Shown piece after piece: positions 1,888 to 6,341 of a stretch of 64,000 bases of DNA. The notes under the pieces are model-generated. The model made no database searches. It was not told the DNA's origin and saw nothing but the letters and a program-made list of their open reading frames with translations. This stretch comes from Thermoanaerobaculum sp. (GTDB lineage Bacteria > Acidobacteriota > Thermoanaerobaculia > Multivoradales > UBA5704), in NCBI GenBank assembly GCA_021154885.1, contig JAJKHS010000045.1, forward strand, positions 1-64,000, in the 5' to 3' direction. The position numbers were made by a program, and so were the translations under genes. The stretch's first letter is position 1; every line of letters starts with the position of its first letter.

Positions 1888-3357
1888 ATGCCACGCCCTG
1901 TCCCCCCGCCGGAAAGCCTCGCCCTGACCACCCTGCGGCGGGCTCGCGGCTTGACTGAAGGCGATCTGGCGGCCCTGAGCGGCATCTCCAAGGGGCTCAT
2001 CTCGCGCTACGAGCTTGGCACCGACCGCCTGTCCCGCGAGAAGCTGGAGGAGGTCGCCGCAGTGATGAGTTATGAGCCCGTCGACGTCGATGCCGTCCTC
2101 TCCGGCATCCTCCGGGCCACCACCCGGCCGCCCCTTGGTCCTCTTTCACCGGTGGACCCCACGCCCGCCGAGCGCCGCCGCATCCGCCGAGCGCTCGGCC
2201 GCCTGGCCCAGGCGGAGCTGGAAAGGATGGAAGAGCAATTCATCAAGCACCTGCGTGAGACACGCGCGCAGCGCGACCGGAACGCAGCCGAAGACCTCGT
2301 GCGGTGGCTGCTGGAAGAGCCGGACCCGCGAGCACGGCGCGAGTTGGTCGAGGGCTCGCGGCAATATCATCAGTGGGCGGTCGCGGAACGCCTCTGCCAC
2401 GAGAGCGAGCGGGCGGCGGCCGGGAGCGCCGAGAAGGCCTTGGAGCTGGCGTGGCTGGCCCTGCGCGCAGCCGAGCTGGCGCCTGGAGATCCGGTCTGGT
2501 GCCAGCGGCTCCTGGGTTACGTCTGGCTCTTCATTGCGAACGCGAGGCGGGTGGGGGGTGATCTGCCGGCCGCAGCTCAGGGCTTCCCCAAGGCATCGGA
2601 GCTCTGGCAGGCTGGCGCCGCGGCGGACCCGGGCCTTCTCGCCGCATGGCGCTTGCCCGACGGTGAAGCCTCCTGGCGCCGCCAAGGGAACCCCGATAGA
2701 GCCCTGGCACTCCACGAGAAGGCTTTGGCGCTAGCTCCGCCGGAGGCGAAGGGGCGTATTCTTCTCAACAAGGCGGTAACTTTGGAGCTGATGGGCGAGC
2801 CTGAAAGAGCCCTCGCCACGCTAGAGGAGGCGAATTCGCGTATCGACAGGCTCCGCGAGCCGCAATGCCTGTTTGCCTTGCAGTTCAATCGCGCTGTGAA
2901 CCTTTGCCACCTTCAAAAGTTCGCAGAAGCCGAGGCCCTCCTAGAATCAATCGGGGAGAGGGCGCTGGCCCTTGGGCGCGAACTCAATGTGCTCCGGGTA
3001 CTCTGGCTTCACGCCCGGATCGACGCCGGGCTTGGCCGGGAGCGGGAGGCCGAAGCGGCCTTCGAGAAGGTGCGCCAGGGATTCCGAGCACGAGGGATAG
3101 CCTACGACTTCGCGAAGGCAACCCTCGAGCTTGCCGTTCTCTTCCGCGGCCAGGGGCGCTTGGCGGATGTCAAGGCACTGGCGAAGCAGTCACTGTGGAT
3201 TTTCGAGGCGCAACGAGTTCACGCCGAGGCCGAGAAGGCTCTGCGGCTCTTCTGCGAGGCGGCCGAGGCGGAGCGGCTCACCGTGGAGCTGGCGCGGCGC
3301 ATCCTGCGGTATCTTGAAAGGGCGCAGCATGACCCGGGGCTTCGATTCGAGGAATGA
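1888..3357 (+). CDS. HTH-TPR transcription factor, paralogue 1
   Basis: This is a 489-aa cytoplasmic protein. Residues about 10-65 form an XRE-type helix-turn-helix (LRRARGLTEGDLAALSGISK..., then SRYELGTDRLSREKLEEVAAVM). From about 130 onward the protein is built of TPR-like helical pairs (for example ALALHEKALALAP, AVTLELMGEPERALATLEEA). HTH followed by TPR is the architecture of RRNPP peptide-sensing regulators, in which the TPR groove binds a small exported peptide. The start has a strong AGGAAGGAG site. It is a clear paralogue of the gene at 3887, sharing motifs such as NARRVGG / NAQRVGG, AWRLPDG and ILLNKAVT. It converges on the repeat-peptide gene at 3399-3776. Peptide sensing is inference. 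Confidence 0.8.
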   Translation: MPRPVPPPESLALTTLRRARGLTEGDLAALSGISKGLISRYELGTDRLSREKLEEVAAVMSYEPVDVDAVLSGILRATTRPPLGPLSPVDPTPAERRRIRRALGRLAQAELERMEEQFIKHLRETRAQRDRNAAEDLVRWLLEEPDPRARRELVEGSRQYHQWAVAERLCHESERAAAGSAEKALELAWLALRAAELAPGDPVWCQRLLGYVWLFIANARRVGGDLPAAAQGFPKASELWQAGAAADPGLLAAWRLPDGEASWRRQGNPDRALALHEKALALAPPEAKGRILLNKAVTLELMGEPERALATLEEANSRIDRLREPQCLFALQFNRAVNLCHLQKFAEAEALLESIGERALALGRELNVLRVLWLHARIDAGLGREREAEAAFEKVRQGFRARGIAYDFAKATLELAVLFRGQGRLADVKALAKQSLWIFEAQRVHAEAEKALRLFCEAAEAERLTVELARRILRYLERAQHDPGLRFEE

Positions 3358-3398
3358 CCGGCGGGCTGGCAACCGCCTGCCCGCCAGACCGATGGATC

Positions 3399-3776
3399 TC
3401 AGCTCTTGCAGCGGCCATCTGGATCGAGACCGCACCCGTTGTCCGCGCCGGCCGGTTGCACTGGCGCAGCACCGGGTCCGGACAGGCAGCGGCCCCAGGG
3501 ATCGATGGCGCAGCCGTTGTCCGCGCTGGCCGGCTGTGCGTGAGCGGCGCCGGTGCCAGGAAGGCAGCGGCCCGAGGGATCGAGGCCGCAGCCGTTCTTC
3601 TCCCAAAGGCCGGCAAGCCAGCTCCACAGGCTGGCGAACGGGGCTGTACTCTCGTAAAGGCCAGGATGGGTCCGAACGGCTCGATCGGGTGGTGCCGCCG
3701 CGGCGGCCCAAGGGAGGAGGACGGCGAGGATGAGCAGCAGTGCGACGGCTCTGCACACCAAGGGGATTCGCGACAT
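3399..3776 (-). CDS. Secreted small protein with three 26-aa-spaced NGC-DP-GRC repeats
   Basis: This 125-aa protein starts at ATG 3774-3776, behind an AAAGGAG site. Residues 1-28 are a clear Sec signal peptide (basic start, LLLILAVLLPW core, AAAAA cleavage region). The mature part has a Trp-rich amphipathic stretch (FASLWSWLAGLW) and then three copies of a Cys loop, NGCGLDPSGRC, NGCAIDPWGRC and NGCGLDPDGRC, beginning at residues 61, 87 and 113, a period of exactly 26. Each loop is C-x7-C and could close as a disulfide. The spacers are Ala/Pro/Gln-rich, like processing linkers of multi-copy pheromone precursors. It is convergent with HTH-TPR 1 and divergent from HTH-TPR 2. A precursor of signalling peptides is the favoured but unproven reading; a structural secreted protein is possible. 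Confidence 0.7.
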   Translation of the reverse strand: MSRIPLVCRAVALLLILAVLLPWAAAAAPPDRAVRTHPGLYESTAPFASLWSWLAGLWEKNGCGLDPSGRCLPGTGAAHAQPASADNGCAIDPWGRCLSGPGAAPVQPAGADNGCGLDPDGRCKS

Positions 3777-3853
3777 GGAGATCTCCTTTCTGGAGTAAAC
3801 CGGGCTGCCTTGCTCGGCCTCCCGGCTGGTTGGAAGAGAAAAAACACACTGCC

Positions 3854-3872
3854 GTGCACGCTGAGTGTGCAC
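3854..3872. promoter_or_regulatory. Paired GTGCAC boxes, candidate operator
   Basis: Two identical palindromic hexamers GTGCAC occur at 3854-3859 and 3867-3872, 13 bp apart, both followed by GC. They lie in the 110-bp spacer between the divergent repeat-peptide gene and HTH-TPR 2, just before the latter's ribosome site. The location suits a regulator that controls both genes. No experimental support. Confidence 0.35.
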
Positions 3873-3886
3873 GCGGGGAGATGGAG

Positions 3887-5251
3887 ATGAAAGAGCCCAT
3901 GGAGCCGGAGGACCAGTTGGTGCTGCTGCCCCTTCTGCGGGCCTTCCACGGCTGTTCCCAGGAGGAGCTGGCCGCCCGCGCGGGCCTCGACGCCAGCACG
4001 GTGCGACGCTACGAGAAAGGCCGGCCGATGACGCGTAAGAGTTGGGAGCAGATCGTGGAAGGCTCTGGGTTGCCGCTGGCGCTCGTCGAGACGTGTCTCC
4101 TGCCAGCCATCCGCGCCGGCCGTGCCGTCTTGACGCTCGTCAGCCCGTTCCAGGGCCTAGGCTCCGGCACAGAGTTGGACAGAGCCCTGGCCGAAGCGCG
4201 CCACGCTGCGTTCACCGCCCTCCTCGGAGAGCTGGCCGGCGGCTCAATCGCTTCTGCGGCTGCCGAGGTCTCCTGGGAGGACAAGACCTGGCGTTTTGTG
4301 GAAGCTCTCTGCTCCGAGAGCGAAGTCGTCGCCTCTGAAGACGCGAAGCGTGCTTTGAAGCTCGCCGAGCTGGCCCTCCGCTTTGCCGAGCGGGCGCCGG
4401 GGAAAGGGGAACGCCGGTCGAAGCTCGAAGGCTATGCCTGGATCTTCCTCGGCAACGCTCAGCGCGTGGGCGGAGCTCTGCCTGCGGCAGACGCGGCCTT
4501 CGCGCGCGCCGCAAAGCTTTGGGAGGCTTGGACAGGCGGCACTCCGATCACTCTCCAGGCCTGGCGCTTGCCGGATGGCAAAGCTTCCCTCCGCCGGCAC
4601 CAGGGGCGCTTCGCGGAAGCTTTGGATCTGCACGATCGTGCTTTCGCCCTCGCCCCGCTGGCCCGCATCCTTCTTAACAAGGCCGTCACCTATGAGCACC
4701 AAGGCGAGCCCGAGCAGGCCCTTTCCACACTTCAGGAGGCTGAGGCGCGGATCGACGCCGCCCGCGAGCCGCGGCTCCTCTTCGGCGTGCGCTTCAACCG
4801 CATTGTCAACCTCATCCACATGGAGCGATACGCAGAGGCCGCGCGCAGTCTACCCGCCGTCAAATCCATGGTGGAGTCCGCCGACAAGCCGCTCGACCGC
4901 GTCCGGGTGGTCTGGCTTGAATCGAAGATCGCCGCCGGTTTCGGTCGCCGGGCGGAGGCCGAGGAGTTGCTCGACCGCGTTCGCCGGGAATTCCTCTCGC
5001 GGGAGATCGCCTACGACGCGGCGGTGGCCAGCCTGGAGCTGGCGGTGCTCTATCTGGAGGATGGGAGGAGCGCGGAGGTGAGGACCATCGCCGCCGAGCT
5101 GGCGCCGATCTTTGCCGCCCAGCGCGTGGCCCGCGAGACCCTGGCATCCGTCGATCTCTTCTGCAAGGCCGTCCAGCAGGAGACCGTCACCGCGGAGCTG
5201 GCGCGCGGGTGGTTGAAAGAGCTGAGCCGTGCGGGGTCCTCAAGGGGATAA
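3887..5251 (+). CDS. HTH-TPR transcription factor, paralogue 2
   Basis: This is a 454-aa protein if started at ATG 3887, which has GGGGAG 7 nt upstream; ATGs at 3881 and 3899 are alternatives. The N-terminus has a canonical XRE helix-turn-helix (LRAFHGCSQEELAARAGLDA, STVRRYEKGR). The rest is all-helical TPR-like repeat (ALDLHDRAFALAP, ILLNKAVTYEHQGEPEQALSTLQEAEARID). It matches paralogue 1 almost throughout the TPR part, but its HTH helices differ, implying a different DNA target. It is divergent from the secreted repeat protein at 3399-3776 across a 110-bp spacer with paired GTGCAC boxes. The probable role is regulation of that gene in response to a bound peptide (inference from RRNPP architecture). 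Confidence 0.8.
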   Translation: MKEPMEPEDQLVLLPLLRAFHGCSQEELAARAGLDASTVRRYEKGRPMTRKSWEQIVEGSGLPLALVETCLLPAIRAGRAVLTLVSPFQGLGSGTELDRALAEARHAAFTALLGELAGGSIASAAAEVSWEDKTWRFVEALCSESEVVASEDAKRALKLAELALRFAERAPGKGERRSKLEGYAWIFLGNAQRVGGALPAADAAFARAAKLWEAWTGGTPITLQAWRLPDGKASLRRHQGRFAEALDLHDRAFALAPLARILLNKAVTYEHQGEPEQALSTLQEAEARIDAAREPRLLFGVRFNRIVNLIHMERYAEAARSLPAVKSMVESADKPLDRVRVVWLESKIAAGFGRRAEAEELLDRVRREFLSREIAYDAAVASLELAVLYLEDGRSAEVRTIAAELAPIFAAQRVARETLASVDLFCKAVQQETVTAELARGWLKELSRAGSSRG

Positions 5252-5313
5252 TCGGGCTGGCGCCTGGTCGCTGCACTCCCTGACCTCTTTTAATGGCCGG
5301 TCGAACGGCATAG

Positions 5314-5472
5314 GCGCTAACTTTGGCCTCGATGCCTAGGGTAGGGGCGGGTCTGGACGGCAGGTTGGGGGCTCGACCCGCCCTGGCGGAGGACTGTCTC
5401 GCAGCCGCTGCAGGGCGGGTCGAGTCCCCTCCCGCCCGTCCAGACCCGCCCTACCCTAAACAAAGTTAGCGC
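5314..5472. repeat. MITE-like element with 12-bp terminal inverted repeats
   Basis: GCGCTAACTTTG at 5314-5325 is the exact reverse complement of CAAAGTTAGCGC at 5461-5472. Inside, further inverted blocks pair GGGCGGGTCTGGACGG (near 5346) with CCGTCCAGACCCGCCC (near 5437), and GGCTCGACCCGCCCTG with CAGGGCGGGTCGAG around the centre, so the 159-bp unit can fold into one long hairpin. The 9-mer GGTCGAACG occurs just outside both ends (5299-5307 and 5479-5487) and may be a duplicated target. The element has no coding capacity. Confidence 0.65.
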
Positions 5473-5492
5473 GTATGCGGTCGAACGCGGCA

Positions 5493-5765
5493 GCGATGAC
5501 TGCTGCCAAGCCAGCAATGACTCCTGCCGGGCCAACGACGACTGCTGCCGGGCCAGCGATGACTGCTGCCAAGCCAGCAATGACTGCTGCCAAGCCAGCG
5601 ACGACTGCTGCCAAGGCAGCAATGACTGCTGCCGAGCCAGCGACGACTGCTGCCGAGCCAGCGATGACTGCTGCCAAGCCAGCGACGACTGCTGCCGAGC
5701 CAGCGATGACTGCTGCCGCGGCAGCGATGGCTGCTGCCGAGACAGCGACGGCTGCTGCCGAGGTC
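5493..5765. repeat. 21-bp tandem repeat array, about 13 units
   Basis: Consecutive 21-bp units of the type GCGATGACTGCTGCCAAGCC run from 5493 to 5744 (12 full units) with a degenerate thirteenth to about 5765. Units differ mainly at GCGATG/GCGACG/GCAATG and AAG/GAG/GGG positions. Because 21 is a multiple of three, several frames stay open on both strands, and one plus frame would read MTAAKPA-type heptapeptides continuously into the DUF5684 gene. I see no ribosome site before it and treat it as a non-coding minisatellite. Confidence 0.7.
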
Positions 5766-5924
5766 GTGGGGACTGCGGAGGAGCTTGCAGGCCTGACGGC
5801 GGGACCAGGGTCTTGCCGCGCGTGTTCATCCATCCTCCACGAATTGACGGGCTTCGCCCCCCGGCATACAGTTTCGCCTGGACCGTCAGGAGTCTGTGGC
5901 GCTTTATTCAGAAAAGGAGGAGGT

Positions 5925-6341
5925 ATGCTCTCGACCGTGCCATTCCTTGCGCTGATGCAGTCGGACGCCGGGGACCGGGGAGCCGGCGGACTGCTGGCCG
6001 GCTGCTTCGGCGGCCTTGGCTGTATCGTCTGGCTCGCCTTGGTCATCCTGATCGTCGCCGGCCTGTGGAAGACGTTCGAGAAGGCGGGGCACCCCGGCTG
6101 GGCCGCCATCGTGCCGATCTACAATGTTTACATCCTCACTCTCATCGCGGGCCGTGACATCCTGTGGTTCATCCTGTCGCTCATCCCGTTCGTCAACATC
6201 GTGGCCGCGGTTCTGATCTCGCTCGACGTCGCCAGGAAGTTCGGCAAGGACACCCTCTTCGGGCTCGGCCTCGCCTTCCTGGGCTTCATCTTCTATCCCA
6301 TCCTGGGCTTCGGGGACGCGCAGTACAACCCCAACGCCTGA
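5925..6341 (+). CDS. DUF5684-type small membrane protein
   Basis: This is a 138-aa integral membrane protein with about four hydrophobic segments. The start ATG at 5925 is preceded by a textbook GGAGGAGGT site; upstream in-frame sequence is the tandem repeat array and is not included. The motif FEKAGHPGWAAIVPIYNVYIL followed by a paired helix (DILWFILSLIPFVNIVAAVLISLDVARKFGKD) is the hallmark of the DUF5684 family, often found alone or linked to signal peptidase genes. Its biochemical role is unknown. It ends 12 bp before the stop of the convergent SpoIIE phosphatase gene. Confidence 0.8.
   Translation: MLSTVPFLALMQSDAGDRGAGGLLAGCFGGLGCIVWLALVILIVAGLWKTFEKAGHPGWAAIVPIYNVYILTLIAGRDILWFILSLIPFVNIVAAVLISLDVARKFGKDTLFGLGLAFLGFIFYPILGFGDAQYNPNA

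Follow-up and report, generated by a model that had tools for sequence, protein, structure and literature searches.

Repeated-tag precursors beside TPR proteins in a Thermoanaerobaculum genome: a candidate RRNPP-like peptide-signalling family in Acidobacteriota

The DNA analysed here is a 64,000-nucleotide stretch of Thermoanaerobaculum sp. (contig JAJKHS010000045.1, positions 1 to 64,000; hereafter the window), and our subject is a small gene in it for a putative exported precursor of short peptide tags, which lies between two genes for proteins combining a helix-turn-helix (HTH) domain with tetratricopeptide repeats (TPRs). The first of these, HTH-TPR1 (1888-3357, forward strand; 489 aa), has an XRE-type HTH and approximately eight TPRs (Pfam HTH_3, 6.8e-8; TPR_12, 4.6e-9); standing tail-to-tail with the precursor gene (3399-3776, reverse strand; 125 aa), the usual position of receptor genes for cysteine-type precursors, it is a candidate receptor. 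The second, HTH-TPR2 (3881-5251, or from an alternative start at 3887, forward strand; Pfam HTH_31, 1.3e-6; TPR_12, 1.6e-7), is divergent from the precursor gene. The two are paralogues with 42% identity over the alignment and 49% over the TPR part; start codons were picked by a simple rule. A sequence-only reading of this stretch had proposed just such a Sec-type protein of 125 aa between two paralogous HTH-TPR proteins, and the gene calls, Pfam matches and identities agree with it.

The precursor, Sec-type exported as judged from its sequence, begins with a signal-peptide-like region (residues 1-27; 3696-3776, reverse strand) comprising an arginine-containing start, a hydrophobic core and AAAA, a layout similar in the 44 paralogues of the same genome. 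A Trp-rich segment (ASLWSWLAGLWEK) is also present, as are three tags on the same strand, NGCGLDPSGRC (residues 61-71; 3564-3596), NGCAIDPWGRC (residues 87-97; 3486-3518) and NGCGLDPDGRC (residues 113-123; 3408-3440), which are the NGC-xx-DP-x-GRC loops reported earlier at residues 61, 87 and 113. The exact 26-aa spacing of these loops is genuine in the window, where it derives from a 78-bp tandem repeat (3421-3596), but relatives do not share it, and the cysteines too are missing from most of them. An AAAGGAG precedes the ATG of the gene, and a dN/dS of ~0.37 relative to a paralogue on contig C43 supports its being coding. No Pfam domain matched the 125-aa protein, and NCBIfam and PADLOC likewise yielded no name for it.

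The divergent spacer between the precursor gene and HTH-TPR2 (3777-3880, 104 bp, or 110 bp to 3886 with the second ATG) is presumably a shared promoter region. It does contain the two GTGCAC boxes (3854-3859 and 3867-3872) to which the earlier reading drew attention, but these are a local feature of doubtful function, because they are unconserved at other loci except for one box at a similar distance in the C43 paralogue. GTGCAC is found upstream of just 4 of the 44 precursors of the genome, and occurs six times in the entire window against 12.7 expected. When we looked for a common operator or promoter motif, nothing convincing emerged beyond Shine-Dalgarno-like and GC-rich words. In many precursor 5' leaders, a GC-rich palindromic sequence (GGCCATGGAGGCC-like, with CCATGG at its centre) stands ~30-70 bases ahead of the start; examples lie upstream of 5934 in L070, of 13997 in L075 and of 4490 in L076. 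It may represent a hairpin in the RNA, an alternative start or a short open reading frame (ORF) upstream of the gene.

The window locus has numerous counterparts in its own genome (G000; 8.2 Mb, 97% complete). Single-query searches gave 28 matches for the window precursor (P0001) and 63 for P0002, and the fetched regions hold 56 TPR ORFs and 44 small tag genes, approximate genome totals that rest on searches and fetched regions together. A ribosome-binding site is recognisable in nearly all 44 small genes, and dN/dS values of 0.37-0.68 in five pairs show purifying selection on the precursor genes. The predicted genomic association of the repeat proteins with HTH-TPR genes is strong: 24 of the 25 distinct places matched by P0001 (E <0.05; a second overlapping match at one place excluded) are no more than 1 kb from a TPR match, compared with 2.1% of the genome lying within that distance (binomial p ~8e-40), and the 25th is the last member of a tandem triplet. 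A precursor profile was also built from TPR neighbours, and is hence circular with respect to this association; exempt are the P0001 single-query test, two further precursors beside TPR genes (C84, C120) that were absent from the profile's training set and, in part, the regions in other genomes chosen by the profile alone, 18 of 20 of which have an adjacent TPR gene.

The same coupling is seen in the phyletic distribution. Among 31 sampled genomes of the order, the TPR family is present in 21, with 32 to at least 51 genes per genome in the organism's own family, 11-29 in three other families and no TPR-family gene in family f3. Precursors occur in 13 of the 31, all of which have TPR genes, and are absent from all 10 genomes without them. 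Across the class, 20 of 149 genomes gave a match, some of them weak and single, including three weak ones in f3. A contig scan with P0001 alone gave no match; a search from alignment A2 did yield relatives, and those found by search belong to Thermoanaerobaculia/Acidobacteria, not Bacillota.

Several observations touch on the dynamics of the loci. Tandem triplets of precursor genes next to truncated TPR genes (L062:6582-7882 and L067:4006-5145) may show how modules duplicate and decay. Downstream of HTH-TPR2, at 5305-5481 of the window, lies an imperfect palindrome of ~175 bp with dozens of genomic copies (80 matches on both strands), several of them beside other TPR modules (C158:9055, C56:36494, C4:5575, C120:9184); this resembles a miniature inverted-repeat transposable element and might have aided the spread or rearrangement of modules. 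Directly after it, a 21-bp unit repeated 13 times (5491-5762) encodes 7-aa repeats at the start of an ORF at 5475-6341.

Alignment of the precursors revealed a common layout of a signal peptide (judged by eye and hydropathy), a Trp-rich helix-like segment and then the tags. The conserved element is a tag of consensus [DKE]xGxx[IMLV]DP[ND]G in one to six copies. It is not the cysteine loop of the window, which represents a single variety of this wider xGxxxDPxG tag. In the NGCxxDPxGRC form, a disulfide between the two cysteines could close the DPxG turn. On the pattern alone, we discarded the idea of a calcium loop of the EF-hand or dockerin type. A count in 155 precursors of several genomes gave two tags in 53, three in 36, four to six in 11 and none, by the pattern used, in three. 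The copies within a protein resemble one another far more than those of other proteins, with an identity over seven positions of 0.54 within versus 0.27 between in 93 distinct multi-tag proteins (0 of 2000 permutations); at tag positions -5, -3, -2 and -1 the values are 0.55, 0.67, 0.58 and 0.53 within versus 0.13, 0.20, 0.14 and 0.18 between. The genome of the window alone has 39 different tag cores among its 44 precursors. Moreover, close relatives display concerted switches, such as EAGSGMDPDG versus DGGAGMDPDG, in four copies each with the first or last copy slightly different at the edge, and two copies of KQGSGV versus two of KQGSAL, and two neighbouring modules of one genome carry DAGAEW and DEGPGW. 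Two precursors with no TPR gene in the fetched region have six different tags (L242:2849-3247; GWQMDPNG, SACDPNG, GWSVDPNG, SVIDPNG, SALDPSG, FSIDPNG) and four similar tags (L246:2815-3300), respectively.

The proteins encoded beside the precursors fall into two classes. Cysteine-type precursors are typically tail-to-tail with HTH-TPR genes (31 of 43), and half of these are also flanked, like the window precursor, by another HTH-TPR gene in divergent orientation. Most non-cysteine precursor genes immediately precede their own TPR gene on the same strand, and the majority of these receptors have an HxxxCxxC domain resembling ZAS anti-sigma factors, found in 69 of 89 receptors of the codirectional class and in 0 of 37 tail-to-tail receptors. 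Its motif residues H23, C27 and C30 are at least 90% conserved in alignment A4, and its zf-HC2 matches are weak (L209, 1.2e-4; L203, 7.7e-4) and mostly below the cut-off. In distant few-copy families, an extracytoplasmic function (ECF) sigma factor gene is directly upstream of the ZAS-TPR gene (L204 and L206, with Sigma70_r2 matches of 8.7e-10 and 4.1e-8; likely also L208); no such gene was noticed beside the expanded modules, although no search for sigma domains was run there. In these distant families, the sigma/ZAS-TPR or ZAS-TPR genes are preceded by genes for small exported proteins (L203:3593-3898, L204:536-901, L206:3500-3916) that lack a full DPNG tag, two of them ending in DNGHIVP or ADGPHIED. 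These proteins are possible ancestral ligands. We infer that the modules probably derived from a sigma/anti-sigma operon. The initial reading covered one of ~44 precursor genes, and the ZAS receptor class was invisible from the window alone.

Two of the putative receptors were modelled with AlphaFold2 (mean pLDDT 92.3 for HTH-TPR1 and 89.4 for a ZAS-TPR protein). The HTH-TPR1 model comprises an HTH and ~8 TPRs, which fits the layout of RRNPP receptors, with their N-terminal HTH (or three-helix bundle) and 5-9 TPRs. Its first match in the PDB is Rap:CSF, a Rap with its pheromone (E 5.5e-5), and PlcR-PapR7 is also listed. TPRs are reported to contact ligands on their concave side through positions 2, 5, 6, 9, 12 and 13 (PMC1261162). 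We read this face from the TPR numbering, anchored on the conserved alanine of helix B, and found near-invariant residues on it: N218 (108 of 109), R221 (106 of 109) and N334 (91 of 108), along with R/K370, W373 and E/D414. A conserved pocket in the TPR groove had been named as a test of the idea, and the groove indeed combines this polar set with variable positions that covary with the tag.

This covariation was examined in 109 cognate pairs, with precursor and receptor paired by neighbourhood. Tag and TPR distances are correlated (Mantel r 0.32; 0 of 2000 permutations), and r is still 0.32 once signal-peptide similarity is removed. The tag-linked TPR columns cluster on helices A5/A6, with 7 of 500 permutations equally concentrated; in rank tests they were not significantly enriched among all helix A residues. 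Phylogenetically independent contrasts linked K294 with Asp at tag +2 (11.0 for versus 1.1 against; sign-test p 0.006), W337 with Gly at tag -3 (6.6 versus 0; p 0.016) and T367 with Met at tag -1 (5.4 versus 0; p 0.06), all nominal p-values, since the contrasts were selected among the 400 top-ranking of 40,180 associations tested. The window itself offers a further comparison: at eight variable groove positions, chosen from cognate pairs excluding HTH-TPR2, HTH-TPR1 and HTH-TPR2 agree in six, whereas 50 other TPR pairs of like identity average 2.5 matches and none reaches 6. This agreement in spite of 49% identity suggests that both probably read the same tag.

Together, these observations favour, with a probability of about 0.65, a system in which TPR receptors in the cytoplasm sense peptide pheromones, much as in RRNPP signalling, and of which the window locus would be one of ~40 paralogous modules; with its ~44 precursors, the genome seems to hold an extensive and hitherto undescribed array of private peptide-signalling channels. 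The earlier proposal of a multi-copy precursor with HTH-TPR receptors outside Bacillota is partly supported, by the association and the groove, with signalling itself a prediction. From the genes, tags, association and covariation described above, we infer the steps of export, maturation, re-import and binding as follows. The precursor would be exported by Sec and cut by proteases, which would turn the repeated tags into free peptides, and these would re-enter the cytoplasm via an oligopeptide permease; two genes for SBP_bac_5 oligopeptide-binding proteins are present in the genome. Within the TPR groove, the DPxG would be held by N218, R221, N334, R/K370, W373 and E/D414 and the variable tag residues read by positions on TPR4-6, and binding would alter the HTH (DNA) or ZAS (sigma factor) output.

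Certain points weigh against this reading. LGN and kinesin light chain match about equally well and TPR folds are common; as the eukaryotic LGN scores alike, the Rap-like fold is compatible with a pheromone receptor and no proof of one. The tag-associated columns are not significantly enriched, by rank test, among all canonical TPR ligand positions, and the contrasts carry the selection noted above. Single tags are found in 52 of the 155 precursors, and two regions picked by the precursor profile (L242, L246) have no TPR neighbour in the fetched region. Finally, this is a Gram-negative cell, in which a peptide must cross two membranes each way.

In the main rival reading, the TPR protein would bind the tags of unexported precursor in the cytoplasm, so that the module gauges its own synthesis or the Sec load, with neither a free peptide nor a signal between cells. 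The C-terminal tags would remain longest in the cytoplasm, both sequence and model indicate soluble TPR proteins, the non-cysteine precursors are encoded immediately upstream of their codirectional receptor genes, and the covariation is equally explained by direct tag-TPR contact. Yet multiple tags separated by Pro/Ala/Gln linkers resemble peptides meant for excision, paired cysteines make most sense after export, and putative SBP_bac_5 importers exist in the genome; we consider such feedback unlikely. We give still less credence to the possibility that the precursors are secreted effectors or antimicrobial peptides (for kin recognition or bacteriocin-like), with the TPR proteins as regulators or immunity-like partners and the tags varying with their targets. 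The many diverse paralogous small exported proteins and the switching of tags between relatives would fit this, but the TPR partner is cytoplasmic, with an HTH or ZAS domain, and is not an immunity protein of the membrane or periplasm, inspection of the gene calls showed no further gene recurring beside the modules, the PADLOC matches are weak HTH-domain ones only, and the tag residues follow those of the receptor groove. Least probable of all is that the tags are structural repeats with no ligand-receptor relation, for although gene conversion alone can equalise copies within a protein and neighbouring genes share history (TPR distance versus signal-peptide distance, r 0.26), the correlation survives signal-peptide removal and independent contrasts, the two receptors of the window have unusually similar groove residues, and near-invariant residues line the concave face.

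Returning to RRNPP-like signalling, the nearest functional model is that of the RRNPP(A) systems (Phr/PapR/NprX/AimP) of Bacillota and phages, in which a cytoplasmic HTH and TPR protein similarly adjoins a small exported precursor gene for a short variable peptide. Tandem pheromone copies in Phr precursors (PMC11343458) are comparable with the repeated tags, and the groove asparagine that holds the peptide main chain in Rap proteins (RapJ N225, conserved in all Bacillus subtilis Raps; PMC3601965) with N218/N334. The present system differs in its host, an acidobacterium rather than Bacillota or their mobile elements, in precursors of ~70-135 aa with a fixed xGxxxDPxG frame, in the second receptor class with a ZAS domain, in the tail-to-tail gene order of the cysteine class and in its apparent origin from sigma/anti-sigma operons. 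None of the Pfam or NCBIfam models for RRNPP members (Rap, Rgg, NprR, PlcR, PrgX, AimR) matched the window proteins; RapH is found among PDB sequences at only 4.7e-5, behind many unrelated TPR proteins, and one relative has a weak Rgg_C match (E 0.06). For want of sequence homology to the subfamilies, and with hosts that are not Bacillota, we do not class the system as RRNPP. Its presumed mode of action is that of RRNPP signalling, but its origin was probably a separate one, in a sigma/anti-sigma operon.

The soluble ZAS anti-sigma factors of ECF sigma factors share the HxxxCxxC motif, the weak zf-HC2 matches and, in L204/L206, the upstream ECF gene, and differ from the proteins described here, which have a long TPR domain and an adjacent tag precursor. 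By Foldseek, the ZAS-TPR model also matched DdvA, a TPR-containing anti-sigma factor (PDB 8rw5). DdvA, in contrast, is transmembrane. To our knowledge, it has no tag precursor. The fuller picture of a separately evolved Gram-negative peptide language, with dozens of private channels per cell, each a DPNG-framed and mostly repeated tag with its own TPR receptor, a sigma/anti-sigma origin and both DNA-binding and sigma outputs, is one on which we are evenly divided.

Cytoplasmic HTH-TPR pheromone receptors have been described for Bacillota and phages, and the RRNPP literature we examined concerns Gram-positive hosts; in the open literature, a search that left subscription journals and preprints mostly uncovered, we found no publication that links Acidobacteria to RRNPP or peptide-receptor signalling. 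Nearest in scale are the Alo systems (AloR-AloP) of Paenibacillaceae, likewise an RRNPP-like expansion with many peptide-receptor pairs per genome; these belong to Bacillota and have another tag frame, whereas here ~44 precursor genes per genome share one. With >25 pairs in some genomes, Alo was called a record in 2020, which ~44 tag precursors in one genome would surpass (PMC7425212). The fixed tag frame and the many cognate pairs make for a ready data set on the specificity of peptide-TPR recognition, and these pairs also point to predicted ligands in a phylum that is large and poorly cultured.

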